Below are positions 6,536 to 27,029 of a DNA stretch of 27,438 nt, one piece after another. The notes beneath the pieces were generated by a model. That model saw nothing but the letters and a program-made list of their open reading frames with translations, did no database searches and was not told the DNA's origin. Origin of the DNA: a virus. A program made the translations under genes and the position numbers. Location of the stretch: positions 1-27,438 of the IMG/VR virus record IMGVR_UViG_3300008120_008032. One strand, written 5' to 3'. Within the stretch, counting starts at the first letter, position 1, and the number at the start of each line of letters is the position of its first letter.

Positions 6536-6536
6536 A

Positions 6537-7037
6537 TCAATAGTTTATATAATAACCATACTTATCATCCCCTACAAGTAGTTTCATCATAGGGTATCTT
6601 TCCAAAAATATCTCTGGCGTAAGGTCGGGTTGTAAATGTGTTTCGTGAACATTATCCATATAAGTACCTTGCTCATAGTTATAGGGAACAGCAATCAAAC
6701 AAAGAATATCTAGGTCTTGAATCCTCTTGATTACTTGTTGGGCATCCTTCACACTTAAATGCTCAAGTACATCACCCATGATTATGTAATCATAATCTCT
6801 AAAATCAAACTCACGAATATCTCCTAAAATAACTTTGTTATACTTACTATTTAAATCAAATTGTTCTATGTAGTTTGCAAATATTTCAATCGCATCCATA
6901 TTGGGAAAATGCTCCTTTAGTAAATGCGAGTATGTACCACAACCTGGACCAACATCCAAAATGCGAATACGCTTTACTAGATTCTTTAAGAAATGTTCTT
7001 TTACTTCCTCTTTGTAAAGGGTGTAACTATAAGGCAT
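6537..7037 (-). CDS. Class I SAM-dependent methyltransferase
   Basis: This 166-aa protein is a short class I methyltransferase. Motif I is IRILDVGPGCGTYSHLL (residues 24-40), the glycine-rich SAM loop. The acidic end of strand 2 is MDAIEIF, and the motif IV region is YDYIIMGDVLEHL, like many small-molecule and sugar methyltransferases. It is shorter than the usual 200-250 residues but keeps the core strands. It lies 1 nt upstream of the sulfotransferase gene and 3 nt downstream of the DUF6165 gene, inside the glycan-transfer operon. O-methylation of a sugar in the same glycan is the simplest role. The substrate cannot be read from the sequence. Confidence 0.8.
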   Translation of the reverse strand: MPYSYTLYKEEVKEHFLKNLVKRIRILDVGPGCGTYSHLLKEHFPNMDAIEIFANYIEQFDLNSKYNKVILGDIREFDFRDYDYIIMGDVLEHLSVKDAQQVIKRIQDLDILCLIAVPYNYEQGTYMDNVHETHLQPDLTPEIFLERYPMMKLLVGDDKYGYYINY

Positions 7038-7040
7038 AGG

Positions 7041-7424
7041 TTAGTATTTTTTATGTGACTTTTCCTCTACTATTGATGAACCATACTTCTCATTAATTTT
7101 TCTCTTAATCTTTGCTCTCAAATCATTTTTCTTATACACACTACGAGCAAGTTCAATGAAAGAGGAATCAAACTTTTTCTTTCTTTCACATTCTCTTTTA
7201 CCATCTTCTATGTGCCACAACTCCTCATTAACATTAGATAGTTCTTTGAAGTATTTTGTCTTATGGTAATTGGGGTCAATTTTCTTAGCAATCTTAACCA
7301 ACATAGTCCACTCCTTATGAATGTTGATATGTTTAGATGGCTCTTGGATATACTTTAACTTGTTCTCTAGTATAGAGATTTTGTCAAATAATTCACCTAT
7401 GGAAACAGGAATCCTAATATTCAT
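7041..7424 (-). CDS. DUF6165-like protein
   Basis: This 127-aa protein starts with IPVSIGELFDKISILENKLKYI, closely resembling the DUF6165 pattern (I-P-V-S-x-G-E-L-x-D-K-I-x-I-L-E-x-K). The family is often encoded in lipopolysaccharide or glycan gene clusters, and its function is unknown to me. The rest is helical and rich in Lys and Glu, with a conserved-looking LWHIED segment. It is the first gene of the minus-strand glycan operon, preceded by a promoter-like sequence in the 7425-7490 divergent region. The family call is by memory of the signature and is moderately safe; no biochemical role is proposed. Confidence 0.7.
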   Translation of the reverse strand: MNIRIPVSIGELFDKISILENKLKYIQEPSKHINIHKEWTMLVKIAKKIDPNYHKTKYFKELSNVNEELWHIEDGKRECERKKKFDSSFIELARSVYKKNDLRAKIKRKINEKYGSSIVEEKSHKKY

Positions 7425-9237: not shown

Positions 9238-9441
9238 ATGAATAACGGTTTAAAATGGGCATTGGTTAGCCTACCAATTTTAGTTGGGGGATTCATTGTA
9301 TATAGAACTCTTACTAAAGAACAAAGAGAAGCGAAAAAAAAGGCAAAAGAACAAGGAGGTAATAACACACCTATAATCACTAGTGGTGGTGGTAGCGGTA
9401 GTGGTAGTGGTAGTGGTAGTGGTGGGAAGTCGTGGTTCTAA
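9238..9441 (+). CDS. Membrane-anchored N-terminal part of a frameshifted peptidoglycan-binding protein
   Basis: This 67-aa reading frame has one membrane helix (residues about 4-22, LKWALVSLPILVGGFIVY), a basic Glu/Lys stretch, and a Gly/Ser tail encoded by GGTAGT repeats. It then stops at 9439-9441. The downstream peptidoglycan-binding domain continues at once in the next frame and lacks its own credible start. A +1 shift within about 9421-9441 would join them into one protein of about 230 aa with the same plan as its neighbours: anchor, linker, wall-binding domain. This could be programmed frameshifting, a real inactivating mutation, or a sequencing error. Confidence 0.65.
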   Translation: MNNGLKWALVSLPILVGGFIVYRTLTKEQREAKKKAKEQGGNNTPIITSGGGSGSGSGSGSGGKSWF

Positions 9442-9934
9442 GGTAAAGGAATTACAACAAGCAATAGTTGATGATGGACAACCTAATGTAGTTTCTTTAT
9501 TGGGTAAAAATCCTACTGATGGTCAATTTGGAACAGGTACAGAGAAGGCAGTAAAAGCACTTTTAGGTAAAACTAAAATAGATTCTCAAGCAGACATTGA
9601 TAAAATAAAAGGTCTTAAAGCAACAAGAAGTTCTCAACAAAATACTATAAACAAGCAAATTGAGAGAATTGCACTTGCAAATAGATTAATTGCAACATTT
9701 AATAGTAATCCATCCGCATACTATTTCTATTCCGTTAGAAGGCATAGTGGAACTGTGGGAAATGTGACCTCTGATGGTAGACAAGTTAGAAGTGCTACTA
9801 AAGTTTGGCAAGATGGAGAAAAGGTAGGGTTCACTAGATATGCAAAATTCAAAGTGGATAGAGTAGGTAATATCACAGCGACAGATGGAGATAAGTTTGC
9901 ATTTTTTAACCCAGAATGGGTGGAAGTAAAATAA
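9383..9934 (+). CDS. Peptidoglycan-binding-domain part, in +1 frame to the 9238 gene
   Basis: This frame is open from 9383, but its first 14 or so codons are only the Gly/Ser repeat read out of frame as valines, so the GTG there is not a believable start. The meaningful part begins at about 9426 (GSRGSKVKELQQAI). It shows a PG_binding_1-like pattern (LQQAIVDDG, then DGQFGTGTEKAVKALLG), a helical part with AnRL-type repeats, and a C-terminal beta-rich region ending FFNPEWVEV. The domain should bind peptidoglycan. It probably forms one protein with the 9238 membrane anchor after a +1 shift. Confidence 0.6.
   Translation: MVVVAVVVVVVVVVGSRGSKVKELQQAIVDDGQPNVVSLLGKNPTDGQFGTGTEKAVKALLGKTKIDSQADIDKIKGLKATRSSQQNTINKQIERIALANRLIATFNSNPSAYYFYSVRRHSGTVGNVTSDGRQVRSATKVWQDGEKVGFTRYAKFKVDRVGNITATDGDKFAFFNPEWVEVK
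9391..9420 (+). repeat. Five tandem GGTAGY hexamers
   Basis: GGTAGC is followed by four GGTAGT units, then GGTGGG. The hexamer encodes Gly-Ser. Gain or loss of whole units keeps the frame, so hexamer slippage alone cannot explain or repair the nearby frameshift. Confidence 0.85.
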
Positions 9935-9944
9935 AAATATAGTC

Positions 9945-10409
9945 ATGAAAAAAGATAATACACTTTTATGGGTTGGATTAGGTAGTGTCCTCGTTGTAGG
10001 GGTCGTTCTCTTTTTTGTTTTAAGGAATCCAAATAAAAAGGGGAAGGACAAAAATGCAAAAGGTGACAAGCCTGAAATTGATGTTTTAGGAGAAGGTGAT
10101 ATAACCGCAGAAGGGAATAACATCGTTGTAGGGGATAAAAAAATAAAAATTGACCCTAATCAATTTAAGATTGATTTTGAGAAAGTAAAGCAAATCCTTG
10201 CTCAACCTGTATCTAAAGAAAAGAAGTATGAGATACTAAAGCAATCTGGTATTTCGGATAAAACGCTCACACTAGTTAAAAATGCGGATGCCGCGGAGCA
10301 ACAAAAGAAATTAAGCCTTGCTATAAAGAATATTCAACAAAAAGAAAGAGATGCAGAGTTTGAAAGACTTACAGGTATTAAGCCTCGTAAGTTCAATCTA
10401 GGTGTGTAA
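9945..10409 (+). CDS. N-terminally membrane-anchored protein of unknown function
   Basis: This 154-aa protein has a membrane helix at residues 7-26 (LLWVGLGSVLVVGVVLFFVL) followed by a basic linker (NPNKKGKDKNAKGDK). A short beta-rich segment comes next (EGDITAEGNNIVVGDKKIKIDP). The helical C-terminal half (about 75-140) has the EKKYEILKQSGISDKTLTLVKNAD pattern, reminiscent of a small helical bundle. I do not recognise a family. The plan matches its neighbours: a single anchor, a charged linker and a soluble domain. A virion membrane protein or a host-envelope protein are both possible. Confidence 0.65.
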   Translation: MKKDNTLLWVGLGSVLVVGVVLFFVLRNPNKKGKDKNAKGDKPEIDVLGEGDITAEGNNIVVGDKKIKIDPNQFKIDFEKVKQILAQPVSKEKKYEILKQSGISDKTLTLVKNADAAEQQKKLSLAIKNIQQKERDAEFERLTGIKPRKFNLGV

Positions 10410-10422
10410 GGTAAAAAAGAAG

Positions 10423-10890
10423 ATGATAGTAATAAGGGCGGTGAATATCCTCAAAATAGAGGATTATATAAAGTGTGCATGGAAAGGAGATAGTGAGTTA
10501 GATAAGTTCTATGACAGGTCACTACAAAGGAGAACCCTAGAGGGGATGGTGAAAGATACGAGTCGAAAGATTCGTGATATGATGGAACTTGATGAACAAC
10601 TATCCCTACTAGGAATCGAATTTGAAAGCAAATCGATTGGGTTTATCGTTTTAAGCGAGAAACTATCGATGCTTTATAGTTTTGGTATTAATGTAGAGTA
10701 TAGAAAAAAGGATATACTTAGTTCTATATTTAACTATATTAAGGCAAAACTAAAATATGAATTTTATAGTGTTATGTATGAATACAATACGAGGGCGATT
10801 AAATGGCTATGTAGTTGTGGCTTAGAAATTGACCCCTTGTTAAAACCATCACACAATACTATTTACTTAAAATATGATATATGCCAGTAA
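10423..10890 (+). CDS. GNAT-like acyltransferase-fold protein
   Basis: This 155-aa protein resembles small phage GNAT-fold proteins. The strand FESKSIGFIVLSEKLSMLYSFGINVEYRKKDI fits beta4 and beta5 with the acetyl-CoA-binding turn that follows (the expected R/Q-x-x-G-x-G/A is degenerate here). A helix then ends in NTRAIKWLCSCGLEI, the usual C-terminal N-x-x-A-x-x-W/L-x-x-x-G-F motif. An upstream in-frame GTG at 10402 overlaps the previous gene. I chose ATG at 10423 because it follows a purine-rich AAAAAAGAAG and leaves a normal gap. It is the only clearly soluble protein in this part of the operon. The substrate is unknown. Confidence 0.6.
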   Translation: MIVIRAVNILKIEDYIKCAWKGDSELDKFYDRSLQRRTLEGMVKDTSRKIRDMMELDEQLSLLGIEFESKSIGFIVLSEKLSMLYSFGINVEYRKKDILSSIFNYIKAKLKYEFYSVMYEYNTRAIKWLCSCGLEIDPLLKPSHNTIYLKYDICQ

Positions 10891-11210
10891 GTGCATCATT
10901 AGCAGTAGTAAGTGCGGGTACTCAAATAGCGAGTACCGTAGCGGGTATTAAGGACATGAATAAGCGTAGGGATATAGAAATGGCTATATCTCGACTTAGT
11001 GCTGACGACCAAAAGAAGTTAAATCAAAAAATCGCTAGGGCACAAAACCAAAACGAGAGGCTTAACATACTTGCGGAGGAAATCACTAAAGTTCAAATTG
11101 AGCAACTCAAAGAAAAAAGAAAAAAGGAAACCACCACTGCTATCATAATCATTGGAGGTTCTCTAGTTTTACTAGTTGCTGTATTTTTATTAACTCGTTC
11201 AAAAGATTAA
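10881..11210 (+). CDS. Coiled-coil protein with C-terminal membrane anchor
   Basis: This 109-aa protein begins with a small-residue-rich, alanine/valine segment (residues 3-23). It continues with a long charged helix (about 24-80, DIEMAISRLSADDQKKLNQKIARAQ and onward) and ends in one strong membrane helix (about 87-104, AIIIIGGSLVLLVAVFLL) plus RSKD. It overlaps the GNAT-like gene by 10 nt. The tail-anchored form is the mirror image of the N-terminally anchored neighbours. No enzyme motif is visible and I do not recognise a family. Confidence 0.65.
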   Translation: MPVSASLAVVSAGTQIASTVAGIKDMNKRRDIEMAISRLSADDQKKLNQKIARAQNQNERLNILAEEITKVQIEQLKEKRKKETTTAIIIIGGSLVLLVAVFLLTRSKD

Positions 11211-11211
11211 G

Positions 11212-11565
11212 ATGGGCAATGAAACATTAACAAGAGGTGAGGGTCAAATAGTTCTTGATGATATTAAAAAAGAAATCAAGAGATTAGATGCTTTAATTAA
11301 AGAAAAGAAAATAGTTGGTGCAACAGTAGAAATACTAGATGAGAAAAAAGATTTACTACAAAAGCAAATCGATGCTATCTTAAAAAAGGGTGGTTTAATA
11401 ACAGAGGAGGACTACAATAAATCATACAACCTAATTAGAGGGCAAGAGGAAAAGGAATTGCTTGACCTTAGTAAAAAGGCTAAGAGAAGGATTATAATGT
11501 TTGCCCTAATTGGATTAGGTATTATTGGTGCTTATTATTTACTCGCAAAAAAAGAAACAAAATGA
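11212..11565 (+). CDS. Helical protein with C-terminal membrane anchor
   Basis: This 117-aa protein consists of charged helices (residues 5-55, rich in Lys/Glu/Asp with Leu/Ile heptads), an LITEEDYNKSYNLIR segment that resembles a SHOCT-like short helix-loop, and a membrane helix near 94-110 (IIMFALIGLGIIGAYYLLA). It starts 1 nt after the preceding gene, and its stop overlaps the next start by 4 nt. A short oligomerisation domain hung on a membrane helix is a reasonable reading. Function is unknown. Confidence 0.65.
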   Translation: MGNETLTRGEGQIVLDDIKKEIKRLDALIKEKKIVGATVEILDEKKDLLQKQIDAILKKGGLITEEDYNKSYNLIRGQEEKELLDLSKKAKRRIIMFALIGLGIIGAYYLLAKKETK

Positions 11566-11906
11566 ATGATAACATAAAGAAGGCGATTGTTGTAATTGGA
11601 GGAGGTGTTCTCCTTTTTTGGCTTGTAAAGGATTTTGGAATCATGGGTAAGGAGAAGAAAAAAACTAAGAAAGAAGATGAGCCAAACATCGACCCAAAAG
11701 AATTAAAGAATAAAAGAAAGGCTAACGCATTTGTGGCAGTTAAGGCTTACATAGATGCCATCAATAATAGAGAGAGCGAGAAAGCACTTGATGAACTCAA
11801 TCGTGAATTTGCAAAAGAATTGAAAGTGAGGGTTTATCGTAGAAGCAAGGATGGTGTTATTGTAGCAACTGACCTACAAGGAAATGTTATTTTGGAGAAT
11901 AAATAA
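11562..11906 (+). CDS. N-terminally membrane-anchored protein of unknown function
   Basis: This 114-aa protein has a membrane helix at residues 7-23 (AIVVIGGGVLLFWLVKDF), then a very basic and acidic linker (KEKKKTKKEDEPNIDPKELKNKRK). A small soluble domain (about 52-113) follows, ending in two beta strands (RVYRRSKDGVIVATDLQGNVILEN). The start overlaps the previous gene by 4 nt, and the stop shares one base with the next ATG (TAATG), so expression is coupled. No family is recognised. Confidence 0.65.
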   Translation: MNDNIKKAIVVIGGGVLLFWLVKDFGIMGKEKKKTKKEDEPNIDPKELKNKRKANAFVAVKAYIDAINNRESEKALDELNREFAKELKVRVYRRSKDGVIVATDLQGNVILENK

Positions 11907-12550
11907 TGAAAAGGATTCCTACTTGGGTATATGTGTGGGTTGCTACCGCAATAGGAGTGGGTCTTTTTCTTGCTTTTAGAAATAAGCCTAAAAAACCTAA
12001 GAAAGTTTTATTCGTAGGAGATTCTATTACTGCTATTGAGTTTAATGGTAAGCCAACAGGAACTTATCCCTTAATCATAAGGAAGCAAAACCCTAGTTTA
12101 ATTATTGATGTACTAGCGGTGGGTGGGAAAACAACAAAATGGATGCTTGAAAACCTACCTAGCAAAATTGGTAATGGTTATGATAGGGTATACATATATG
12201 GTGGAGTCAATGATGCTTTTAGCAACGCCAATCTAGATGGGGTAGTGGCAAATGTTCAAAAGATGGTTGATATTGTAAAGAGTAATGGTGCAACCCCCTA
12301 TGTAGTTCTAGGATATGAGCCTAATGGATTCATGGAGTATAAAAAAATGCCTACTACTAGGTATGTGGGAACGAAAGAAGGCTATATACCATTAATCGCT
12401 AGATACAAGGAATTGCAGTCAAAATACTTAAATGTAAAGGGTGCTATCTTTGTACCTAAATTTCAATTAGGGTCTAACACTAGTGATGGAACACATCCAA
12501 ATGGTAAAGGACAATCAATTATTGCTAACGATATAATGAATACATTTTAA
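11906..12550 (+). CDS. Membrane-anchored SGNH/GDSL-type hydrolase
   Basis: This 214-aa protein has an N-terminal membrane helix (residues 7-24), a short basic linker (NKPKKPKK) and an SGNH hydrolase domain. Block I is VLFVGDSIT (34-42, nucleophile Ser40). The block II glycine is in AVGGKTTKWM (Gly73/74). Block III is YIYGGVNDAF (97-105, Asn102), and block V is SDGTHPNGKG (193-202, Asp194 and His197). All catalytic positions are present. The family cleaves esters, including O-acetyl groups on peptidoglycan or polysaccharide. Anchored here beside wall-binding proteins, it may de-acetylate or de-esterify a host envelope glycan. Substrate is inferred only. Confidence 0.85.
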   Translation: MKRIPTWVYVWVATAIGVGLFLAFRNKPKKPKKVLFVGDSITAIEFNGKPTGTYPLIIRKQNPSLIIDVLAVGGKTTKWMLENLPSKIGNGYDRVYIYGGVNDAFSNANLDGVVANVQKMVDIVKSNGATPYVVLGYEPNGFMEYKKMPTTRYVGTKEGYIPLIARYKELQSKYLNVKGAIFVPKFQLGSNTSDGTHPNGKGQSIIANDIMNTF

Positions 12551-12552
12551 TT

Positions 12553-13020
12553 GTGCCATCATTTGCAGTAACCATAACAATCACAACCACACCAGCGGTA
12601 GCAGTCACTGCTAGTAATGTAACCTATGATGAAATTCGTAGGTCGTTGGGGGATTATGTGTACTTAGTAGAGAGGGTTTACCTATTTAGTAATAGTTTTC
12701 AACAAATAAATGGTGTCGTTAAGTACGAACATTATAATGTAGATGGAAATATTGTTGTAGAAAACTTAACTCCTACAATAGACCCGTATCAAACTCAAAA
12801 ATCATTATTCTATGATACAAAAAAGTTTGATGTAATTTTAGATGGACAAAGTAGTTTGGATTTTGATTTATTACCAAATGCAGAGATAAAATTAGAGTTT
12901 TTCACAAATAGATTGGCTAAAAGAGATGCTCTTGACATACTTACTCCTAACAACTTTAAGACTCTTGAGAGTTCGATGGGCAGATTCTCTTTTTTTGAGG
13001 ATTGGGAAACTCAACTATAA
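12553..13020 (+). CDS. Probable minor structural protein, beta-rich
   Basis: This 155-aa protein starts at GTG 12553, 2 nt after the preceding stop. An ATG alternative would remove the Thr/Val-rich start (FAVTITITTTPAVAVTASNV), which looks like part of the fold. The rest alternates short beta strands (VERVYLFSNSFQQINGVVKYEHYNVDG) and ends with FFEDWETQL. No signal or membrane helix is visible. The Thr/Ser/Asn-rich, strand-dense composition and its position between tethered proteins and another beta-rich protein suggest a virion surface or vertex component. I do not recognise a family. Confidence 0.6.
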   Translation: MPSFAVTITITTTPAVAVTASNVTYDEIRRSLGDYVYLVERVYLFSNSFQQINGVVKYEHYNVDGNIVVENLTPTIDPYQTQKSLFYDTKKFDVILDGQSSLDFDLLPNAEIKLEFFTNRLAKRDALDILTPNNFKTLESSMGRFSFFEDWETQL

Positions 13021-13029
13021 TTTATTGAA

Positions 13030-13704
13030 ATGGCTAAAGAATATATTTCTATAAACATCAAGAATAATACAAATGGTAAGATACCCATGAGTATCATGAG
13101 TAATCCTTCCAATTTAACTGATATATCTAATCAAACTACAGAATATAGTTGGGATGTAACTACGCTATCAATAACAACTGAAAATTTTGTAGTTATAGAA
13201 TATAGACCCAATGCCTTAGTAGATTTTGATTCGTATAGTACTCCACTTCTAACCCCAACTTTGCAAGGGGTTTTAGATGCCCTAAATACATTAGGTATAG
13301 GTTCATTCTTTTCTACTACTAGCGGTGGTAATACCTATATTAAGAACTATGACAATGATTATGTCTTTGGGCAATTAGATGTATTTGACTCAACTGGCAC
13401 TGTTGTTACATGGAATGTTAATTGTATTGGTACAACAGGTAATAATGATGTTCAATGTGGATTTTTCTTTATATCTCAATCAAATCCTTATAATGCTAGT
13501 ACAACTGTGCCTGTATCTTTTAGTGGGCAACAAGTTGATATTACTGGCGTAACATCAAATCAACCTACAACGAAGATTAAGATTAAAAATCTTACCACTA
13601 ATACTTTTATACTAAACACAGGACTTGGGTCTGGTGTTGCGTATACCTATTCATTTAACGCAATATATGGTAACGCATACCTAATTGATATTTATGATTT
13701 TTGA
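13030..13704 (+). CDS. Probable structural/surface protein, Thr/Asn-rich
   Basis: This 224-aa protein is rich in Thr, Ser, Asn and Gly and nearly lacks helices. It begins with ISINIKNNTNGKIPMSIMSNPSNL and contains a second similar unit near 184-200 (TKIKIKNLTTNTFILNT), so the fold may contain a repeated small beta unit. LQGVLDALNTLGIGSFF (about 79-95) is the only clear helix. The composition is typical of phage capsid or spike proteins, and such Ser/Thr-rich beta proteins are the usual targets of autotransporter-type heptosyltransferases. It is the last gene of the operon and ends back-to-back with recT on the other strand, with no visible terminator between them. Confidence 0.6.
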   Translation: MAKEYISINIKNNTNGKIPMSIMSNPSNLTDISNQTTEYSWDVTTLSITTENFVVIEYRPNALVDFDSYSTPLLTPTLQGVLDALNTLGIGSFFSTTSGGNTYIKNYDNDYVFGQLDVFDSTGTVVTWNVNCIGTTGNNDVQCGFFFISQSNPYNASTTVPVSFSGQQVDITGVTSNQPTTKIKIKNLTTNTFILNTGLGSGVAYTYSFNAIYGNAYLIDIYDF

Positions 13705-14532
13705 TTAGGATTGCTCCTCACTAGAATTAAGTGTTCCATAAATATTCCTATATCTACTTTGCTTGGGATGTCCATTCTCTATAATCTTAACGCCATTATT
13801 TTCATCTAGTGTAATTAAAGACCCACTTTCAATTAGTGAATCCATGCCTATTGCCTTTTTAGAGTAGTAATCTTTGGGTAGCATCTTACTAAGTTGAATA
13901 AGGGCACATTTTCTTTCCATCCATCTATTTGGATTATTCTTATCGTTAAAGTATAGTTCATTAGGAATTTTGCTCATATCTCTAATCGCCTCAATCTCTT
14001 TTCTAGAAACTACTGCAAATTGATATTCTCCTTGTTTATTCTTAGCAACAGCATACGCATGAGTTATAGTATCACTAGTTCTATCTACTTTGAAATTTGG
14101 CTTATGAACAATATTTGGTTCTAACCCATAAACAGGTTGAAACTTATCGCCCTTATAAACGACCTCTGTGTGGATTCTAGTTATATCACCACTCCTCAAA
14201 AGAATACTTACTAATCCCTTGTACCCTATTGTTGGAAATACAGTCATTTTATATCTACCATCACTTTGCCTAATTGATTTAGGTATTAGAAAGAACTCCC
14301 CAATCATATCACTAGGTATGAGTCCTATCTCTGCCCCCGCTAATATTGATGCGAATAAGGATGATGGATTATCTATGAATGATTGAATAAGTTTTTCGTT
14401 CTTTTTAACCTCACTTAATACAACCTCTACAAATTGATTAGTATCTATACCATGTTTGCTTAGTAATAATGGTAAGTGAATGTTTTTATATTTATATAAT
14501 GATGTCTTAAACTCGTTGATAATTTCTTTCAT
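13705..14532 (-). CDS. recT: RecT-family single-strand annealing protein
   Basis: This 275-aa protein matches RecT/Redbeta-type annealases. Family-like blocks are SLFASILAGAEIGLIPS (residues about 58-74), GEFFLIPKSI, TVFPTIGYKGLVSILLRSGDI (about 95-115), ITHAYAVAKNKQGEYQF and VSRKEIEAI. A C-terminal SS-E-E-Q-S acidic tail is present. RecT anneals complementary strands after 5' resection. The likely partner nuclease is encoded at 15079-15867, two small genes upstream in the same operon. It starts one base into the stop of the 102-aa gene before it. Confidence 0.9.
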   Translation of the reverse strand: MKEIINEFKTSLYKYKNIHLPLLLSKHGIDTNQFVEVVLSEVKKNEKLIQSFIDNPSSLFASILAGAEIGLIPSDMIGEFFLIPKSIRQSDGRYKMTVFPTIGYKGLVSILLRSGDITRIHTEVVYKGDKFQPVYGLEPNIVHKPNFKVDRTSDTITHAYAVAKNKQGEYQFAVVSRKEIEAIRDMSKIPNELYFNDKNNPNRWMERKCALIQLSKMLPKDYYSKKAIGMDSLIESGSLITLDENNGVKIIENGHPKQSRYRNIYGTLNSSEEQS

Positions 14533-15078: not shown

Positions 15079-15867
15079 TTAATAGAATACTTCCTCAACT
15101 AAGGGGAAATCGACCTTGTATTTGCACTTGTGATTGATAGGGCAACTATTACATTTTACAAGGGATGGATAGGGTGTAAAACCTTTCTCAATATCTTTAG
15201 ATAGTTTTCCTAATACATTATTGATGGCAACTATGTGCGATTGCCTTCTACTCTCATCAACTTCTTGCCTAATAATTTTTACATTGTTTGGGTCTTGTGT
15301 GCTAAAAACAAAATAAAAGAAAGGTATATCATGGATGCCTAGACAATCATTCGCTAACATTTTATAGTGTACTCCTTGAATCATTAGAGAATCCTTCATG
15401 TGTAAACTCTCTAAATCCCATCCCATCTCATTCCACTTGTCATCAATTAATCCACTATACTTAAGGTCAATAAATACTTCCTCACCATCCCAATCAGCGT
15501 GTATATCTACTACTCCATTGCAATCTTTTGTTTCAAGTAGTAAACCTTTGTTAAGTATTTTAATTTTATAGTGTTCCATGATTTTGTGAAAAATCTTAGA
15601 ACTTGCTATTGCTCTCTCGTATGGAGCGGCAATCTTTTCTCTATTTGTTCCTTTGTAAGAAATCTCAGGCTCAGGGGTTTCTCCACTTTTGGGTAATGCA
15701 CCTGTGCATAGGTACTCAAAATAAATTCCTGCCTTCATTGAATCACTAGGAGGGGATTGTGCCTCTGGGTCTTTATCTATATAGTTCGCTTTAAAATAAA
15801 CGCCACACAATTTTCCATTTAGATAATCTACATAAGCCTTCATTAAACTTTGACTAATCTTTACCAT
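15079..15867 (-). CDS. PD-(D/E)XK exonuclease with probable 4Fe-4S cluster (RecE/Cas4-like)
   Basis: This 262-aa protein has the RecB/Cas4-type nuclease core. GIYFE ends at Glu51. GVVDIHADWDGEE carries Asp121, and VFIDLKYSG supplies the D-x-K at 134 and 136. MIQGVHYKM (162-170) gives the Q-x-x-x-Y motif (Gln164, Tyr168). Cys239, Cys242 and Cys248 (C-x2-C-x5-C) near the C-terminus, with Cys21 near the N-terminus, reproduce the split cysteine arrangement that holds a 4Fe-4S cluster in Cas4 and AddB-type nucleases. As partner of the RecT three genes downstream it would resect double-strand ends. It overlaps the preceding membrane-protein gene by 14 nt. Confidence 0.85.
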   Translation of the reverse strand: MVKISQSLMKAYVDYLNGKLCGVYFKANYIDKDPEAQSPPSDSMKAGIYFEYLCTGALPKSGETPEPEISYKGTNREKIAAPYERAIASSKIFHKIMEHYKIKILNKGLLLETKDCNGVVDIHADWDGEEVFIDLKYSGLIDDKWNEMGWDLESLHMKDSLMIQGVHYKMLANDCLGIHDIPFFYFVFSTQDPNNVKIIRQEVDESRRQSHIVAINNVLGKLSKDIEKGFTPYPSLVKCNSCPINHKCKYKVDFPLVEEVFY

Positions 15868-16841: not shown

Positions 16842-16870
16842 AGTGCTAAACTATGCCAAATCATGCTAAG
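16842..16870 (-). promoter_or_regulatory. 29-bp phased-repeat site, copy C
   Basis: On the minus strand, units TTAGCAT, TTGGCAT and TTAGCAC begin 10 bp apart, and the site ends TTAGCACT. It overlaps the last codons of the 103-aa gene and lies 32 nt upstream of the AP2-like ATG at 16809. The same arrangement occurs at 20886 and 27335. An operator or a phage-specific promoter is likely. Confidence 0.6.
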
Positions 16871-17177
16871 TTCCAAGACTTTCATACTTTTTTTTGTAAA
16901 CTTCTATATCCATCCAACCTGTCTTGGAAAATCCCTTTCCTACCCACACTAGGGTCTTATCCCCCTCCTTACGCTTAGAAACCCCAAATATGGGTACGCT
17001 AACTGTTTGTCCAATAATCCTACTCGCTTGGTATGGCTTGGCTAGATTGTTCCAAATCCTATCTATGGTGGCTCTAGCCTCCTTTTCATTGTAGGCTTGA
17101 ATGGTTATTGGGGTCGAAATACCCAAAAAATAGAACCTATATAGCCTTATGGTAGGCTTCTCGAAGGAGAAATTCAT
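16866..17177 (-). CDS. Hypothetical protein
   Basis: This 103-aa protein begins with a strand-rich region (TIRLYRFYFLGISTPITIQAYNEKEARATIDRIWNNL) that looks like a small beta-alpha domain with an NEKEAR-type helix, often seen in phage proteins that modify or bind amino-acid or nucleotide ligands. The second part has VSVPIFGVSKRKEGDKTLVWVGKG and a C-terminal TGWMDIEVYKKKYESLG helix. No metal or catalytic motif is clear. It starts 4 nt before the end of the zinc-finger gene (ATGA) and ends inside copy C of the phased-repeat site. Confidence 0.6.
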   Translation of the reverse strand: MNFSFEKPTIRLYRFYFLGISTPITIQAYNEKEARATIDRIWNNLAKPYQASRIIGQTVSVPIFGVSKRKEGDKTLVWVGKGFSKTGWMDIEVYKKKYESLGT

Positions 17178-17449
17178 ACCTCAAAATCCCCCTTTTGTTT
17201 GATTACATCCCTTAAATCTATCCCTACTTGTGCTTTAGCCAACTCCTCCTCATTAATAAGTCTATGATTTTCACATAAATAGAAGGATTTTACTATCGCA
17301 AAAACTGTCTTTTTTAGCGTATAAGCAAAGTATAATCTCTTAAATTGGCAATATCCCATCTTATCCATTCCATCAATAGGTTGAAAATGCTTACAGTTAA
17401 AGCAAGACCTTATGATTGGTTTACCATTGATATTTCTGTAAGTTTTCAT
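17174..17449 (-). CDS. Probable zinc-binding small protein
   Basis: This 91-aa protein has Cys16 and Cys19 (SCFNCKHF), Cys34 (GYCQFKR), and Cys59 with His62 (YLCENHR). This resembles a CxxC...C...CxxH zinc-binding set seen in small phage proteins. The remainder is basic and helical. It is the first gene after the hairpin terminator at 17514-17541 and may have its own promoter in the 17450-17513 gap, though I see no clear TAnnTTTG there. Its downstream neighbour overlaps by 4 nt. A DNA- or RNA-binding role is plausible. Confidence 0.6.
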   Translation of the reverse strand: MKTYRNINGKPIIRSCFNCKHFQPIDGMDKMGYCQFKRLYFAYTLKKTVFAIVKSFYLCENHRLINEEELAKAQVGIDLRDVIKQKGDFEV

Positions 17450-17555: not shown

Positions 17556-18266
17556 TTAACTTAATTGCTTATATGTCAAACTATTTTTGTCAAAATATTG
17601 ATTTACAATTTCTCTATTCTCCTTTGTGTCTACATAGTAAATACAATCTGTCTTATAAGCAATAAAATCATCACCAAGTAACTTTTTAACCTTTGCCATG
17701 TGTTTGAAGCAAGTGAATCGAATCAACTTGTAAACTCTCTGCAAATCCACATCATCCCCAAAGGTTACTGTTGAATTACTAATTTTCCCACCATTTATTT
17801 GCCTAAATGTTCTACCCATACCTAGCGTAGAGAGAGAAGCGAGTCTTACATTCTTGAACTTCTTTGGCAATCCTCGTTTATAAGTAGCAAGGGTAATTAT
17901 TCCTATATTATAAGCAATACGCCAATACGCATGGTTTAAGTCTGTCGCACAAACCTTAACATTAGAATTAGGAACATCATCATTATACAATATCGACCTT
18001 TCTTCTCTAGGTAATTTTATAGTTGGGTTCTTTCTCAAAAAATCTTGAGCCTCCTTACGAACCTTACCAAATAAAAACAAACCTGCACGAAAAACTCCAT
18101 AATCTTTTTTACCTATCGATGGATAGATAAATGATTTGTTTCCCCAAATAATCTCTGTGCTAAAAGTACCACGCTTGATGTAGGCATCCTCTTTCAATTC
18201 GCCCAACATTTCTAGCATAGGTTTGTCGCTTCTACCAAAGCAGACTTTTCTAGTTTTAATTTTCAT
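17556..18266 (-). CDS. Minimal polymerase-palm-like protein (candidate family B-type DNA polymerase remnant)
   Basis: This 236-aa protein carries three motifs in the order and spacing of family B palm domains. CATDLNHAYWRIA has Asp109, like motif A D-x-x-S-L-Y-P. KNVRLASLSTLGMGR (138-152) looks like a motif B helix with Lys and Arg. DDFIAYKTDCIYYVDT (199-214) has Asp207, like motif C Y-x-D-T-D-S, here K-T-D-C. There is no room for an exonuclease or for full thumb and fingers, as family B enzymes are usually over 500 aa. The gene overlaps the basic 318-aa gene by 11 nt, a pairing that recalls terminal protein plus protein-primed polymerase. The assignment is by motif only and could be wrong. 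Confidence 0.5.
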   Translation of the reverse strand: MKIKTRKVCFGRSDKPMLEMLGELKEDAYIKRGTFSTEIIWGNKSFIYPSIGKKDYGVFRAGLFLFGKVRKEAQDFLRKNPTIKLPREERSILYNDDVPNSNVKVCATDLNHAYWRIAYNIGIITLATYKRGLPKKFKNVRLASLSTLGMGRTFRQINGGKISNSTVTFGDDVDLQRVYKLIRFTCFKHMAKVKKLLGDDFIAYKTDCIYYVDTKENREIVNQYFDKNSLTYKQLS

Positions 18267-19212
18267 TGAACTTATCGTAATTTTCTTTCAAACTAGCCAT
18301 AGCCTTATCATACTTTGCTTTTGATATAAGACCTTTGGATAGGTAATTATCTAATTTCTTTTTTGCTCTCTCGTAGTTCTTAGCGAAATCCTCAATAATC
18401 TTAAACTCGTTTCTAGGAGTAACTTTCTTATTTACAATCTTAGTAATCTTCTTATCATCCTTCTTGATTTGTCTAAATGCTCGACCTTTTGCCTCTTTCT
18501 CTTTTGTGAGTTTGCTTAAAATTTTGTCTAATTTATTATTAACCTTAGTAGCAGTTTTTTTTATGTTCTTAGTTTCTACCTCATCTTGTCCTTGATACCT
18601 AGTTATCTTGCCTAATGTTGATTGTGGTGTAGCCGTTCCTCTTTTTGGTTGTATATATAAAATTAAATCTAAGTAGTAACTATCAGCCTTGCCATCGTTT
18701 TTCATTTTGGGTCGTAGCATTTGTCTACCACTATAAAATGCACTACCACTTTCGTTGCCTACTTCTTTTCTTATGTTCTCTGTTATTTGCTGAACACCAT
18801 TAAAGTAATAGTTATAATTACGAGTATTAAAAATCTTGGTGCTACCAAATCTACCAGCATTAACCTTTACATAAATACAATCAGGTAATCGCCTTTGTAA
18901 GAACTCATCAATCTCAAACCACTCAATCTCTTGATATTGGCTTGGTGATATGTAGTTAAGGTTACAAAGGTTAGGGTCACGAGTAGGAATTAAGGCTATT
19001 TGCCCTTTGATGATTTCATCAATTTGCTTGACCCTTATTTTGGATTTTGGAGTAGTGGAGAGAGCAGGAAGGATTCCTTGTTTGATTAATTGCCTTCTCC
19101 TTTGAATCGACAGTTTTTGTTCCTCTGGCAACTTATTGTTAAGTGCCGTGAACTTTTTACTTACCTTTTGATATAGAGTAAGTTTTTTTGATGTCGATTT
19201 CTTTTTAGGCAT
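18256..19212 (-). CDS. Large basic protein paired with the palm-like gene
   Basis: This 318-aa protein is very rich in Lys (N-terminus MPKKKSTSKKLTLYQK). It has an N-terminal helical part, a central beta-containing part (about 95-205) with PDCIYVKVNAGRFGSTKIFN, SGSAFYSGRQMLRPK and YYLDLILYIQPKRG, and a long charged coiled-coil C-terminal third (KNIKKTATKVNNKLDKILSK onward) with KAKYDKAMASLKENYDKFNEN at the end. I do not recognise a family. Its size, basicity and 11-nt overlap with the palm-like gene make a terminal-protein or replication-initiation role worth testing. It is 1 nt downstream of the HTH gene. Confidence 0.6.
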   Translation of the reverse strand: MPKKKSTSKKLTLYQKVSKKFTALNNKLPEEQKLSIQRRRQLIKQGILPALSTTPKSKIRVKQIDEIIKGQIALIPTRDPNLCNLNYISPSQYQEIEWFEIDEFLQRRLPDCIYVKVNAGRFGSTKIFNTRNYNYYFNGVQQITENIRKEVGNESGSAFYSGRQMLRPKMKNDGKADSYYLDLILYIQPKRGTATPQSTLGKITRYQGQDEVETKNIKKTATKVNNKLDKILSKLTKEKEAKGRAFRQIKKDDKKITKIVNKKVTPRNEFKIIEDFAKNYERAKKKLDNYLSKGLISKAKYDKAMASLKENYDKFNEN

Positions 19213-19213
19213 A

Positions 19214-19423
19214 TCAATTTACCGCTACACTTTTTTCTTCTAACCATTTGTCTAAGTCGAACTTGTTGAAAAGGATTTTATAACCTAATCGATTGTGAGG
19301 TATACCTTTCCTTGCAACCAACTTATACAGATAAGAAGTTGAAAGTTTAGTGTAAACTGAAGCCTCATGAATATCTAGTAAGTAGGAATTTTCTAGGTAT
19401 TCTTTTTTAATGTTGTCTGCCAT
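19214..19423 (-). CDS. Excisionase-like helix-turn-helix protein (MerR-type winged HTH)
   Basis: This 69-aa protein matches the small HTH_17/excisionase family: LLDIHEASVYTKLSTSYLYKLVARKGIPHNRLGYKILFNKFDLDKWLEEK. The recognition helix is STSYLYKLVARKGIP and the wing is NRLGYKILFNKFDLDKWL. Such proteins act as DNA-binding adaptors or repressors. No integrase gene is in the window, so a transcription or replication role is more likely than excision. It is immediately upstream of the basic replication-like gene and may regulate it or the phased-repeat sites. Confidence 0.85.
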   Translation of the reverse strand: MADNIKKEYLENSYLLDIHEASVYTKLSTSYLYKLVARKGIPHNRLGYKILFNKFDLDKWLEEKSVAVN

Positions 19424-23375: not shown

Positions 23376-24038
23376 ATGGATTTAAAAAAAGGTTTACTTG
23401 TATCTAGTGGCATAGCCGCTTTAATTGTTTTGGTGGTTATTGTTGCTAGGGGGCAAAGTAAAAAAGGTGGTAAGAGTTTAGACCCTAAAGTTGCAGACCC
23501 AGAGTTGAGTAAAAAATTCAACTTTCATTTAATACCCGATGGTAAGGGTAATTATCGCTCTGCACAATTTACAGCAAACGAATTACCACAAGTAATTAAG
23601 AAGTACAACATAAAAAGAATTATTCGCTTCAATGGTGATGGAAACGATAGCAAACATAGAAGTGCCTATCCTCAAACACCAATAAGCGAGGAGAAAAGAA
23701 TCGCTCAATCTCTAGGGGTTGAGCATCATTTTATGTCTAGCCACTCTGGTTATAAGAGGGGTCAAGGATATACTAAGAGTGTTGAAAACGCGGGTGCTAT
23801 TTTAGATAAGGGGAATACTCTAGTTCATTGTGCACATGGGGCAGATAGGACAGGAGGTATTGTTGGAGGCTATCTAAAAACAAGAGGTTATATGACCAAT
23901 CTTAATGAGTTATGGAATTACACGACTCAATACAATGGTTGGATGAGCATGATTCGTAATGGTAAGTTTTTTGGTAGTGGGTACGATAAATACGCAGACA
24001 CTTTTTATCCTATTGACCAACTAAAGGCTAAATACTAG
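23376..24038 (+). CDS. Membrane-anchored dual-specificity-type phosphatase
   Basis: This 220-aa protein has a membrane helix (about 6-24, LLVSSGIAALIVLVVIVA), a basic linker and a cysteine-dependent phosphatase domain. The signature HCAHGADRTG (151-160) gives Cys152 and Arg158, as in H-C-x5-R. YRSAQFTANEL (60-70) matches the Y-R-S-x-Q start of bacterial dual-specificity phosphatases. A plausible general acid is Asp89 or Asp92. It should hydrolyse phosphate monoesters on proteins or lipids at the membrane. This is rare in phage lysis-type operons. It ends overlapping the heptose-kinase gene on the other strand by 11 nt, with no visible terminator. Confidence 0.85.
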   Translation: MDLKKGLLVSSGIAALIVLVVIVARGQSKKGGKSLDPKVADPELSKKFNFHLIPDGKGNYRSAQFTANELPQVIKKYNIKRIIRFNGDGNDSKHRSAYPQTPISEEKRIAQSLGVEHHFMSSHSGYKRGQGYTKSVENAGAILDKGNTLVHCAHGADRTGGIVGGYLKTRGYMTNLNELWNYTTQYNGWMSMIRNGKFFGSGYDKYADTFYPIDQLKAKY

Positions 24039-24798
24039 CCACCCCCCTTTTTCTTACGACCTCTCCTGCTATTTGGTTGGCAAATTCTATTGCCATTACA
24101 ATATCCTTACTCGTAAGGTAATTTAAGGCTAGGGCACTTAAAAAGGTATCACCCGCCCCACTTACATCCATTGTAACCACCTTTTCCCCTTTAAAAACCT
24201 TTCCATTGTACTCGACCCCATCTCCACCCATTGTTACAATAATCTTTTGATTAAAGCCTCCCAAATCCTTCAAGATGTGATTGTGGGATTCAAACTCTAC
24301 CTTATTGAACTTAATGAAATCCACAAAGTACAAGGTATCTTCATATACCTTCTTTTTTGTGTCTAAAAAAACTACTGCATTTTTCTTTTTTGCCTTGCAA
24401 ATGTTTTGAATATCGCTAAAGGATATAAACCCCTTGTCATAGTCACTAATGATGATGCAATCAGCCTCACCAATAAGCCTATCAACACGATTTTCCTGTA
24501 AGTTTAGTTTATCACGGTTCTCTCCACTATCGACCCTAATAAAGTAGTGATTTGAGGCATCATCTACATACCTTGTTTTGGTAACATTGTTGGAACTTAA
24601 AATGCTATCCACTACAAAAGAGGGGTTGTACTTAGCAATTAACGATGATAGGTTATTGAACACATTACCGCCCATTCCTTCATTTTTGACCTCTCTCGTT
24701 GGGGTGAAAATGGGTATGGGTGCTTCAGGGGATAATCTATTAACCTTACCATAGATAAATATATCAATACACGAATCGCCTATAACTAGAAATTTCAT
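24028..24798 (-). CDS. rfaE1: RfaE1/HldE-type heptose-7-phosphate kinase (PfkB family)
   Basis: This 256-aa PfkB-family sugar kinase has the start VIGDSCIDIFIYGKVNRLSPEAPIP (residues 5-29), matching the RfaE1 D-x-x-x-D-x-x-x-x-G-x-x-x-R-x-S-P-E-A-P pattern. GMGGNVFNN (41-49) follows, then ISDYDKG (117-123). The ATP and catalytic block is VSGAGDTFLSALALNYL (212-228) with Asp217. In the ADP-heptose pathway it phosphorylates D-glycero-beta-D-manno-heptose 7-phosphate at C1. It is about 50 residues shorter than typical. The matching adenylyltransferase is encoded upstream at 25282-25692, so the usual HldE two-domain protein is split into two genes, as in many bacteria. The last gene of its operon. 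Confidence 0.8.
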   Translation of the reverse strand: MKFLVIGDSCIDIFIYGKVNRLSPEAPIPIFTPTREVKNEGMGGNVFNNLSSLIAKYNPSFVVDSILSSNNVTKTRYVDDASNHYFIRVDSGENRDKLNLQENRVDRLIGEADCIIISDYDKGFISFSDIQNICKAKKKNAVVFLDTKKKVYEDTLYFVDFIKFNKVEFESHNHILKDLGGFNQKIIVTMGGDGVEYNGKVFKGEKVVTMDVSGAGDTFLSALALNYLTSKDIVMAIEFANQIAGEVVRKRGVASI

Positions 24799-24800
24799 GC

Positions 24801-25091
24801 CTAATCTTTTTTATTGATAAGTAATGTTTGTTCTTTTCGTGAACTCTCAATAATAAGGTCGTAAACACTAGTTATTAAACTAATAGATATTCCATCCCTA
24901 TTTGCCCATTGGCTTACCCTATGTAGTATATCCCTCTTTCTATTCTCACACATCTCACTAATACCATGTTCTTTTTTAAGTTCTCCTACTTTGTTTGTTA
25001 ATGATATTCTTTGTCGAATAGATAAGTACAATGCTTCATCTATCAAATCAATAGACCCTCTTAGTTCTTCTAATTCCTCTTTGTAACTCAT
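24801..25091 (-). CDS. AroQ-class chorismate-mutase-like protein
   Basis: This 96-aa protein aligns without gaps, as I recall it, to the chorismate mutase domain of E. coli PheA. Arg11, Arg28, Lys39, Arg51, Ser84 and Gln88 of the active site all line up (LEELRGSIDLIDEAL, IRQRISLTNKVGELK, ENRKRDIL, LIIESSRKEQ). Two active-site acids differ: Asp48 becomes Cys and Glu52 becomes Lys. The enzyme would convert chorismate to prephenate, but why that should sit in a heptose operon is unclear. It may be active, altered in substrate, or a structural helix-bundle protein. It lies 2 nt upstream of the kinase gene and 0 nt downstream of the 62-aa gene. Confidence 0.8.
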   Translation of the reverse strand: MSYKEELEELRGSIDLIDEALYLSIRQRISLTNKVGELKKEHGISEMCENRKRDILHRVSQWANRDGISISLITSVYDLIIESSRKEQTLLINKKD

Positions 25092-25280
25092 TTAATTTTC
25101 TTTTTCCATTTCAAAAACTCTATACACAAATGAATCCCCTAAGTTATTTATTAAATGTTGGGGATAGCCATTTCTAACTAGCCATTTGTAAATATCTTTT
25201 ACATCGTCAGGCAACTCCTTTGGGAAACCATATAAATTCCCATGTGGAGGGTCTATCATCTTTACAATTTTCTTTTCCAT
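25092..25280 (-). CDS. Hypothetical protein
   Basis: This 62-aa protein has IDPPHGNLYGFPKELPDDVKDIYKWLVRNGYPQHLINNLGDSFVYRVFEME. The P-P-x-G-x-x-Y-G-F-P-K-E-x-P-D-D-V pattern is one I have seen in short phage hypothetical proteins with no known function. It has no metal motif or membrane helix. It lies between the adenylyltransferase and chorismate-mutase-like genes, both within 1 nt, so it is translated with the pathway. It could be a regulatory or binding subunit of one of these enzymes. Confidence 0.6.
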   Translation of the reverse strand: MEKKIVKMIDPPHGNLYGFPKELPDDVKDIYKWLVRNGYPQHLINNLGDSFVYRVFEMEKEN

Positions 25281-25281
25281 A

Positions 25282-25692
25282 TCAATCCATTACTACTGTT
25301 GATTGAATTTTAGATACTACATTGCTAGTTGACCAATTACCCATTCTAGGATAAAAAATCAACTCTTTAGCATATTGTCTACCTATTACTTCCTTATCAC
25401 GATACTCCTCACCAACAATCATGTAGTCAGGAGATAAATCCTCAATCAATTTCTCCAATTCTTTTTTACTATTGAAAATTTGTACATCCTTTACGAATAT
25501 CAAAGATGATAGTATAAGTTTCCTCTCATTTTGAGGGAATATGGGTCTAAAAGCACCTTTCATGGTTTTTATCCTTTTGTCACTATCGATACCCAAATAC
25601 ACATCCCCTAGAGAGTGAGCATGAACTAGTAATGCAATATGCCCTGCGTGTAAAACATCAAAGCAACCATTAACCCAAACCTTTTTATTCAT
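25282..25692 (-). CDS. rfaE2: RfaE2/HldE-type heptose-1-phosphate adenylyltransferase
   Basis: This 136-aa nucleotidyltransferase has VNGCFDVLHAGHIALL (residues 7-22) with the HxGH motif at 15-18. LGIDSDKRIKTMKG and the RPIFPQNERKLILSSLIFVKDV region follow, the usual R-P-x-x-P-x-x-x-R-x-x-x-L-x-x-L-x-x-V-x-x-V of RfaE2. DYMIVGEEY is close to the family's P-D-V-x-V-K-G-x-D/E-Y. It would make ADP-D-glycero-beta-D-manno-heptose from the 1-phosphate and ATP. The next gene upstream, the cupin, shares one base. It supplies the donor expected by the GT9 and TibC-like enzymes at 1-5717. Confidence 0.85.
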   Translation of the reverse strand: MNKKVWVNGCFDVLHAGHIALLVHAHSLGDVYLGIDSDKRIKTMKGAFRPIFPQNERKLILSSLIFVKDVQIFNSKKELEKLIEDLSPDYMIVGEEYRDKEVIGRQYAKELIFYPRMGNWSTSNVVSKIQSTVVMD

Positions 25693-26105
25693 TAGTTTCC
25701 TTTTTCAATTCTATAACTATCACTATCATAATGTGGGGTCGAAACCTCCATAATCTCACTATCCTCATAGGCTAGTAGTTGGTGTGGGCAACCTTGAGGT
25801 ACAACCACGCAATCTCCTACATTTAAATCAACCCCATGCCATTTACCCACTTTGGGGTCAATCCACACAAGAGATAATTTACCCTTAAGAACATACCATG
25901 TTTCATGTTTCTCTATATGATAGTGTAGAGAGAACTTCTTGCCCTCATTAATCACTAAAATCTTCCCACAATAAGATTCTCCATTGTAGATAATCTTCTC
26001 ATGACCCCATCCCTTTTTAACAATCTCTGGTTTTCTTAAACGAATAACTACATCTCTTTCCTCTTTCCCTGTAATAATGTCGTAAAGATTTGTTTGTTCT
26101 AGCAT
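25692..26105 (-). CDS. Cupin, sugar-phosphate isomerase-like
   Basis: This 137-aa protein has both cupin motifs. Motif 1 is the G-x5-H-x-H-x4-E-x6-G pattern at 55-75 (His61, His63, Glu68), and motif 2 is the G-x5-P-x-G-x2-H pattern at 97-108 (His108). These would bind one metal ion. The start and overall length resemble the C-terminal domain of type II mannose-6-phosphate isomerase. GWGHEKIIYNG (32-42) also fits. It could isomerise or epimerise a sugar phosphate, perhaps in place of the missing GmhA or GmhB, but that is only a guess. It lies 7 nt downstream of the epimerase gene and shares one base with rfaE2. Confidence 0.75.
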   Translation of the reverse strand: MLEQTNLYDIITGKEERDVVIRLRKPEIVKKGWGHEKIIYNGESYCGKILVINEGKKFSLHYHIEKHETWYVLKGKLSLVWIDPKVGKWHGVDLNVGDCVVVPQGCPHQLLAYEDSEIMEVSTPHYDSDSYRIEKGN

Positions 26106-26112
26106 AGTTTAT

Positions 26113-26925
26113 TTATTTTTTATTAAGATAATCCAAGTATTTATTTAACCCTTCCTTCAAATTATACTTTGCTCTCCAATTAGTCATAAATCTACTCTCA
26201 CTTGCCCTAGTATAGAATTGATAGTTTTTAGGTAGTACGAAATCATCACCATAGTAATCCCATTGAATACCCATAATTTCCAAACCCTCCTCAAAAGGTC
26301 TAGCCTCTCCTGTTCCCACATCAAATGTTTTACCTTTAAAAAATGGGTAGAAATCCCAAGCATATAAATTTGCATCAACCACATCATCTATGTAAATGAA
26401 ATCCCTCATAGGATTCATTTTGATTAATTTAGGTATGACCCCATCTTTGTTCTTTACATAGGATTGATAGAACATAGAAGCCATTTTACCCTTGTGTTCC
26501 TCTCCTGGACCATAAACATTGAAATACCTTAACGATACACCATTACACATAGTAACTAGAGATTCCCCAGCATACTTACTCCAAGCATACAAGTTCATTC
26601 CCAAACCACCTCCATAAATCGCTGCACTAGAGGAGTAAATAATTGGTATATCATAGGCTTGACACCATAGAGTTAATCCATAGGTGAAATCGAAATTTCT
26701 CGACATCATGTGAGAAATATCTTGCTCTAGTGTATCACTACAAGCACCTACATGAAAAATACAAGAAGGGCGAATTTCAGTTAATAACTCATCTAACTTA
26801 TCCCTCCAATCAACATCATCAAAAATAGATTCATCAATACCAAATACATTGTGCCTTCTCTCCTCTAATACTCTTTTTAAGTTTGACCCAATAAAACCAT
26901 TGTGTCCTGTTACTAATACATTCAT
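26113..26925 (-). CDS. hldD: HldD-like ADP-glyceromanno-heptose 6-epimerase (NAD-dependent epimerase family)
   Basis: This 270-aa protein begins MNVLVTGHNGFIGSNL, with the dinucleotide-binding G-x-x-G-x-x-G at 7-13. Tyr113 and Lys117 (YAWSK) form the catalytic pair, with SSSAA at 98-102. SLRYFNVYGPGEEHKGKMASMFYQ (131-154) closely follows the HldD signature R-Y-F-N-V-Y-G-P-x-E-x-H-K-G-x-M-A-S. PMRDFIYIDDVVDANL matches the later R-D-F-x-Y-x-x-D-V. It would convert ADP-D,D-heptose to ADP-L,D-heptose. The open frame continues upstream to 26985, but a start at 26925 fits the domain and an ATGA overlap with a 35-aa gene. It is slightly shorter than bacterial HldD. Confidence 0.85.
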   Translation of the reverse strand: MNVLVTGHNGFIGSNLKRVLEERRHNVFGIDESIFDDVDWRDKLDELLTEIRPSCIFHVGACSDTLEQDISHMMSRNFDFTYGLTLWCQAYDIPIIYSSSAAIYGGGLGMNLYAWSKYAGESLVTMCNGVSLRYFNVYGPGEEHKGKMASMFYQSYVKNKDGVIPKLIKMNPMRDFIYIDDVVDANLYAWDFYPFFKGKTFDVGTGEARPFEEGLEIMGIQWDYYGDDFVLPKNYQFYTRASESRFMTNWRAKYNLKEGLNKYLDYLNKK

Positions 26926-27029
26926 TTTTGAATTAAATGATAAAGTCCGTATAAAAAAATAATTGCTACAACTATGAAAATACATCCACTATCGTTTTCC
27001 CCATCGTAGGGAGGCTCATTGAATTTCAT
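26922..27029 (-). CDS. 35-aa single-pass membrane microprotein
   Basis: ATG at 27029 opens 35 codons (MKFNEPPYDGENDSGCIFIV then VAIIFLYGLYHLIQK). It has a hydrophilic start and one membrane helix at about 17-32. It overlaps both neighbours with ATGA: the 102-aa gene's stop upstream and the epimerase start downstream. The two 4-nt overlaps support a genuine translated gene in a chain. The function is unknown. As in the other operons here, a tiny membrane protein sits next to enzymes. Confidence 0.6.
   Translation of the reverse strand: MKFNEPPYDGENDSGCIFIVVAIIFLYGLYHLIQK

Follow-up and report, generated by a model that had tools for sequence, protein, structure and literature searches.

We describe a family of small proteins of uncultured phages that are predicted to be built around a B-family-like polymerase palm and little else, and that are encoded downstream of a basic partner protein. 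We regard the gene family, the palm-like model and the basic partner as real, with high confidence. The palm protein probably works as an initiator, and we lean towards a reading in which the two proteins start protein-primed replication or telomere patching while a host polymerase carries out elongation. The window, which is the whole stretch of DNA analysed here, corresponds to a virus record of 27,438 bp that IMG/VR has classified, and is probably a fragment of a larger genome. Two open reading frames (ORFs) on its minus strand, of 236 and 318 amino acids, overlap by exactly 11 nt. The first-pass annotation had read DLNHAY (D109) and then KTDCIYY (D207) in the shorter product, and an ORF check confirmed both frames, the order of the motifs and the overlap. 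The two genes and their principal residues are as follows:

17556–18266, minus strand: PolB-like palm-only protein of 236 amino acids, pI 9.8 (ORF with 39 distinct homologues and an AlphaFold2 model)
18256–19212, minus strand: basic protein of 318 amino acids, pI 9.96, net charge +35, candidate terminal (primer) protein (found at 48 of 48 palm loci)
17940–17942, minus strand: codon of Asp109 of the palm protein, a motif-A-like carboxylate at the end of a beta strand (invariant in 39/39; strand E105–110 in the model)
17844–17855, minus strand: codons of the motif-B-like helix residues K138 to R141 (KxxRLAxLSxLG; identified by conservation, helix 135–146 in the model)
17646–17648, minus strand: codon of Asp207, a motif-C-like carboxylate in a hairpin turn (invariant in 39/39; turn between strands 201–205 and 208–212)
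18838–18840, minus strand: codon of Thr125 of the basic protein, candidate priming hydroxyl, inferred (Thr in 38/39; loop in the model)

Conservation of the palm protein family

Profile searches of viral contigs identified 48 loci at first and then 60, on about 60 IMG/VR contigs, and the family comprises 39 distinct members of 228–259 amino acids, the window protein counted. The near-constant length across these members indicates that the whole family is small and that the size does not result from truncation, and rules out a truncated or frameshifted larger polymerase. D109 and D207 are invariant in all 39 proteins, excluding chance motifs, and K138, L142, L145, R183, T206, C208 and Y210 are invariant as well; position 141 is Arg in 37 of 39 members and Arg or Lys in all. 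The motif around Asp109 is TD[LVI][NDE][HGS]A[YF]W (DLNHAY in the window) and that around Asp207 is [YW][KRN]TDCIYY (KTDCIYY in the window). Between them lies a motif-B-like helix, K138xxR141LAxLSxLG, which had not been recognized in the first-pass annotation. In distant members the A-like motif reads TDINSAYW, which, judged as sequence, is very close to the B-family DxNSxY. The B-like motif reads R..LxxLG as against K..NSxYG, with NSxYG changed to LSxLG or similar, and the first Asp of DTD is replaced by Lys or Arg, or by Asn in two members. The palm protein is under purifying selection (dN/dS 0.02–0.12 in close pairs).

Sequence searches of Pfam, PHROG and PDB with the palm protein returned nothing convincing (at best a weak match to phrog_31909, E = 0.014); neither Pfam DNA_pol_B nor DNA_pol_B_2 was matched, and none of the three collections gave a function-telling match for either the 236- or the 318-amino-acid ORF. 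The profile-level match to PolB that the first-pass annotation had envisaged did not emerge from a comparison of the palm family with ten protein-primed B-family polymerases (pPolBs), which scored no better than shuffled columns: hhalign gave a probability of 0.1%, similar to that for shuffles, and the best local profile match, in a comparison that was not significant, paired motif C with motif C. Relatives of the palm protein were absent from 50,697 phage records, 72,556 plasmids and 84,980 prokaryote genomes, and since neither scan of genome contigs returned a match, they name no host; Flavobacteriia are a guess. In the literature searched, which was covered in part, we found no description of the palm family.

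Predicted fold of the palm protein

AlphaFold2, run on the 39-sequence alignment, yielded a model with a pLDDT of 91.5 and a pTM of 0.81. The D109 strand is followed by the K138/R141 helix, a hairpin, a long helix and a second hairpin with D207 in its turn, a predicted layout that is that of a polymerase palm, and beyond the motif C hairpin the model continues for only one helix and one strand. As modelled, the palm, whose fingers are minimal, follows an N-terminal region some 100 residues long. A Foldseek search of the model against PDB gave no match with E < 0.001, and the informative structure searches were VIA-align re-ranking and BFVD only. The VIA-align list consisted mostly of palm polymerases, with moderate Z values (VIA-align cautions on Z < 8), the best being Pol alpha (Z 9.5), KOD (8.9), E. 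coli Pol II (8.8) and phi29 (8.5, over 218 residues). Six BFVD matches had E < 0.001, of which the best (E = 1.8e-5) was to an unnamed 315-amino-acid viral protein and the next to a protein named 'divergent family B DNA polymerase'. The model and these structural matches to B-family polymerases bear out the palm fold that the first-pass annotation had proposed. In the phi29 alignment, model residue 236 pairs with phi29 residue 487; D207 lies 29 residues before the former and phi29 D458 lies 29 residues before the latter, and these equal offsets, taken from the ends of the aligned range, suggest that the two aspartates superpose. The model suggests that D109 and D207 stand at the positions of the B-family catalytic aspartates.

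The VIA-align matches also included, at Z 8.4, an HSV helicase-primase subunit, which we take to be UL8. UL8 is a subunit of the HSV helicase-primase and a PolB relative without activity. Its place among the better structural matches favours the very improbable reading of the palm protein as a B-family remnant that has lost catalysis and serves as a structural or loading factor like HSV UL8 or poxvirus F12, and an inactivated poxvirus PolB relative has been published (PMC4304020). Both aspartates and the motif-B-like K/R rank with the best conserved positions in these proteins, which would not be expected once catalysis had been lost and thus counts against a dead remnant. UL8 and F12 resemble the present case in that a B-family fold has been reused in a virus, but they are much larger and inactive, whereas the palm protein, roughly one-third as large as UL8, has retained the aspartates.

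Of the hallmarks of a pPolB, the palm protein has the palm fold and the two aspartates at catalytic positions (AlphaFold2 model, structural matches and 39 of 39 members). Its motifs B and C, R141LAxLSxLG and [YW][KRN]TDCIYY, stand against KLMLNSLYG and YCDTDS; 228–259 amino acids leave no room for an N-terminal 3'-5' exonuclease domain or a C-terminal thumb; the A-to-B spacing is 32 residues (D109 to R141), too short for TPR1, compared with 134 in phi29 (D246 to K380); and the KxY strand is also absent. Because of the missing domains and TPR1 and the altered motifs B and C, we do not file the protein as a pPolB; its build resembles that of a reduced B-family palm. A beta hairpin at residues 152–169 of the model, between the B- and C-like motifs, appears, by inferred position, to occupy the place of the phi29 TPR2 insertion. 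The phage protein divPolA2 is likewise a palm without an exonuclease domain or a recognisable thumb, but it belongs to the A family and is found beside a full PolB, with no basic partner or inverted repeats reported, whereas the protein described here is B-like (PMC11348598).

A basic partner upstream of the palm gene

The coupling to a basic protein that had been noted in the window extends to 48 of 48 palm loci, each of which has an upstream ORF on the same strand that encodes 284–354 amino acids with net positive charge. The two genes are directly adjacent at most loci (−4 to +51 nt, with the 11-nt overlap in the window); an extra gene lies between them at L007, and the gap is 267–552 nt at L043, L059, L078 and L079. 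The corresponding distance between the terminal protein (TP) and polymerase genes is 22 nt in phi29 and 3 nt in PRD1, and the genes of Cp-1 overlap by 4 nt.

The basic protein diverges much faster than the palm protein. Its dN/dS is 0.02–0.25 in close pairs. Thr125, present in 38 of 39 basic proteins, is the best conserved Ser/Thr/Tyr, missing at that place in L079, the most divergent member; Arg148 is found in 39 of 39. Thr125 lies in a loop of the predicted structure (pLDDT 88.7). Structure searches with this model matched no known fold; alignments were confined to its C-terminal helices, with ribosomal protein S20 and similar proteins (Z < 8), and a C-terminal SHOCT-like stretch scores below the Pfam cut-off. 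By analogy of position only, the basic protein may be a terminal protein, with Thr125, on grounds of conservation, the best candidate for the residue attached to the DNA 5' end.

Inverted repeats at contig ends

We compared contig ends in 25 relatives, the window itself being a fragment. Exact inverted terminal repeats, which had not been part of the first-pass annotation, were present in 6 of the 25 relatives' contigs (653, 127, 123, 114, 57 and 50 bp), and each of the six touches at least one extreme contig end. The 653-bp repeat lies at both extreme ends of contig G011 (74,101 bp) and contains no convincing gene. The palm gene lies 3–14 kb from a contig end in the six contigs. Long direct terminal repeats were found in none of the 25 contigs; the other 19 had no terminal repeat (shared ends of at most 18 bp), perhaps because they are fragments. 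Among cross-contig controls, 595 of 600 shared less than 40 bp, and the five reaching 40 bp were all near relatives. Several near-identical contigs end within a few hundred bases of each other. Together, these data suggest that the genomes are linear and end in inverted repeats several hundred base pairs long. Inverted repeats also fit hairpin-ended genomes; the protelomerase family ResT-TelK (PF16684) was absent from 26 records, and a resolvase of another kind may be present.

The pair resembles phi29 gp2/gp3, PRD1 P1/P8 and Cp-1 orf5/orf4 in several predicted or apparent respects: a palm fold with two aspartates at catalytic positions, a gene for a TP-size protein directly upstream, and a linear genome with inverted terminal repeats and the module near its end. 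It differs from these systems in having no exonuclease domain, thumb or TPR1, in its altered motifs B and C and in the absence of significant sequence similarity; their polymerases are 553–572 amino acids long as against 236 here, and their genomes measure 15–19 kb as against contigs of 74–101 kb. The protein-primed replication pair proposed in the first-pass annotation gains indirect support from the inverted terminal repeats and from the gene order shared with phi29, PRD1 and Cp-1; significant sequence homology to pPolBs was not found.

Search for other replication genes

The palm gene had been noted as the only polymerase-like gene of the window. The window is a fragment, and the search for a full polymerase covered the records of relatives; these records reach 101 kb and include the 74-kb contig bounded by inverted repeats, and none was found. 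DNA_pol_B (PF00136) was absent from 25 records of relatives, and DNA_pol_B_2 (PF03175), DNA_pol_A (PF00476) and DNA_pol3_alpha (PF07733) were absent from 26, as were DnaB_C (PF03796) and the AEP primase Prim-Pol (PF09250). The searches for polymerase, DnaB, primase and protelomerase all detected their targets in control genomes. For PolA, PolB and Pol III alpha, a full polymerase elsewhere in the relatives' records is rejected.

That records of up to 101 kb hold no further polymerase, and that the hairpin at 152–169 has the inferred position of TPR2, would accord with a complete protein-primed replicase, in which initiation and the copying of the entire genome would both fall to the palm protein, with the basic protein or another phage subunit acting as the thumb. 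We consider this improbable: no thumb, proofreading domain, TPR1 or KxY strand is found in 228–259 amino acids, and processive copying of 75–100 kb seems doubtful.

A conserved exonuclease–RecT module

The palm gene of the window belongs to a conserved module, also not part of the first-pass annotation, that ends in a RecT gene:

17174–17449, minus strand: 91-amino-acid protein with Cys pairs, same module as the palm gene (homologues in 4 of 7 genomes compared)
16866–17177, minus strand: 103-amino-acid protein, same module as the palm gene (homologues in 4 of 7 genomes compared)
15079–15867, minus strand: putative Cas4/PD-(D/E)XK-type exonuclease, downstream in the module (core in 7 of 7 genomes)
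13705–14532, minus strand: RecT-family single-strand annealing protein, module end (Pfam RecT, 6.5e-22)
19214–19423, minus strand: 69-amino-acid HTH_17 DNA-binding protein, just upstream, module membership not established (Pfam HTH_17, 1.5e-9)

The palm, basic, exonuclease and RecT genes form the core set in all seven genomes compared. The putative exonuclease has a weak match to a PHROG exonuclease (E = 0.013), and its IDLKY and C-terminal Cys are invariant. The exonuclease gene lies downstream of the palm gene at 43 of 45 testable loci and the RecT gene at 42 of 45; both are downstream on the same strand at 42 of the 45 loci with enough DNA.

This arrangement, and the failure to find an AEP primase or DnaB in the relatives' records, would suit a palm protein that is an active primase or short gap-filling polymerase for recombination-dependent replication with the Cas4-like exonuclease and RecT, a role we regard as possible if unlikely; phage polymerases that derive from PolA and consist of a palm with no recognisable thumb have been described (PMC11348598). 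The basic protein would then be a DNA-binding or clamp/thumb partner and not a terminal protein, which we likewise think unlikely. Such a role leaves unexplained both the inverted terminal repeats and the constant presence of a basic partner at the position of a TP gene. The exonuclease and RecT neighbours also fit a recombination role.

Elsewhere in the window, positions 1049–7424 and 24028–26985 contain gene clusters that by eye are glycosyltransferase-, sulfotransferase-, epimerase- and sugar kinase-like, and that apparently serve surface glycan modification. At 9383–9441, reading frames overlap around a GGTGGTGGT-type repeat, inside which ORF 9383–9934 starts; this ORF may be an out-of-frame continuation of ORF 9238–9441, or its true start may lie inside.

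Traits of the phage lineage

The lineage, apparently undescribed, encodes many small proteins with a single transmembrane segment, including within window positions 9238–13704. A P-loop ATPase at L104:205–1053 (G011:38205–39053, minus strand) has no Pfam or PHROG match and by eye resembles HerA/FtsK packaging ATPases; Terminase_6N had no match in the lineage. These viruses may be tailless phages that contain a membrane and whose linear genomes are unusually large. Short motifs similar to one another, such as YSNASG, FSNANG or LNADG, occur in several L103/L104 ORFs of G011 (for example 31889–32515, 36585–36977 and 37051–37839, minus strand), and in these presumed virion proteins they perhaps mark a maturation-protease site. 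An AAA ATPase ORF at L104:13986–16457 (minus strand) carries a LAGLIDADG/homing-endonuclease insertion that is probably an intein, and L104:18003–19895 (minus strand) encodes a polyvalent protein with an ART-PolyVal ADP-ribosyltransferase domain and DUF5661.

A proposed route to protein-primed initiation

In our preferred reading, the palm and basic proteins would act as an initiator pair at the ends of a linear genome with inverted repeats. A two-metal site formed by D109 and D207 would join the first nucleotide or nucleotides to a hydroxyl of the basic protein, for which Thr125 is the best candidate, using the terminal repeat as template, and the basic protein would remain on the 5' end of the DNA. 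The palm protein, being without a thumb, exonuclease domain, TPR1 and KxY strand, would probably stop after a short protein-linked primer and leave its extension to the host replicative polymerase; the phage exonuclease and RecT may process or recombine the ends. We infer the catalysis, the TP role, the priming residue and the hand-off to a host enzyme.

The nearest functional precedent is Streptomyces Tap/Tpg, whose genes are adjacent, as here; we know of no sequence relation between Tap/Tpg and the palm pair. By hypothesis, the likeness would extend to the order of events, with a dedicated synthesizer making a short TP-linked primer for a cellular polymerase. Tap adds up to 13 nt to Tpg, after which DNA polymerase extends the product (PMC4513846). 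The priming site of Tpg is also a threonine, Thr114, located in a coil (PMC3572947), and the candidate here is Thr125. The authors of the Tap study report no recognisable polymerase motif in Tap (PMC4513846), whereas the protein described here has a predicted PolB-like palm and is viral.

We rate as evenly balanced the broader proposal that, throughout a lineage of linear phages of about 75–101 kb, the genome ends are replicated by a two-protein system: a palm-only, B-family-like enzyme of 230–260 amino acids would nucleotidylate a terminal protein of a new kind, and the phages would encode no full polymerase. If this is true, these proteins would be among the smallest known replication starters, initiation would be split from elongation in protein-primed replication, and the family would show how small a part of a B-family polymerase suffices for beginning a DNA chain on a protein. 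The pair provides testable residues (D109, D207 and Thr125) and a compact system for in vitro replication, as well as a replication marker for this apparently undescribed phage lineage.
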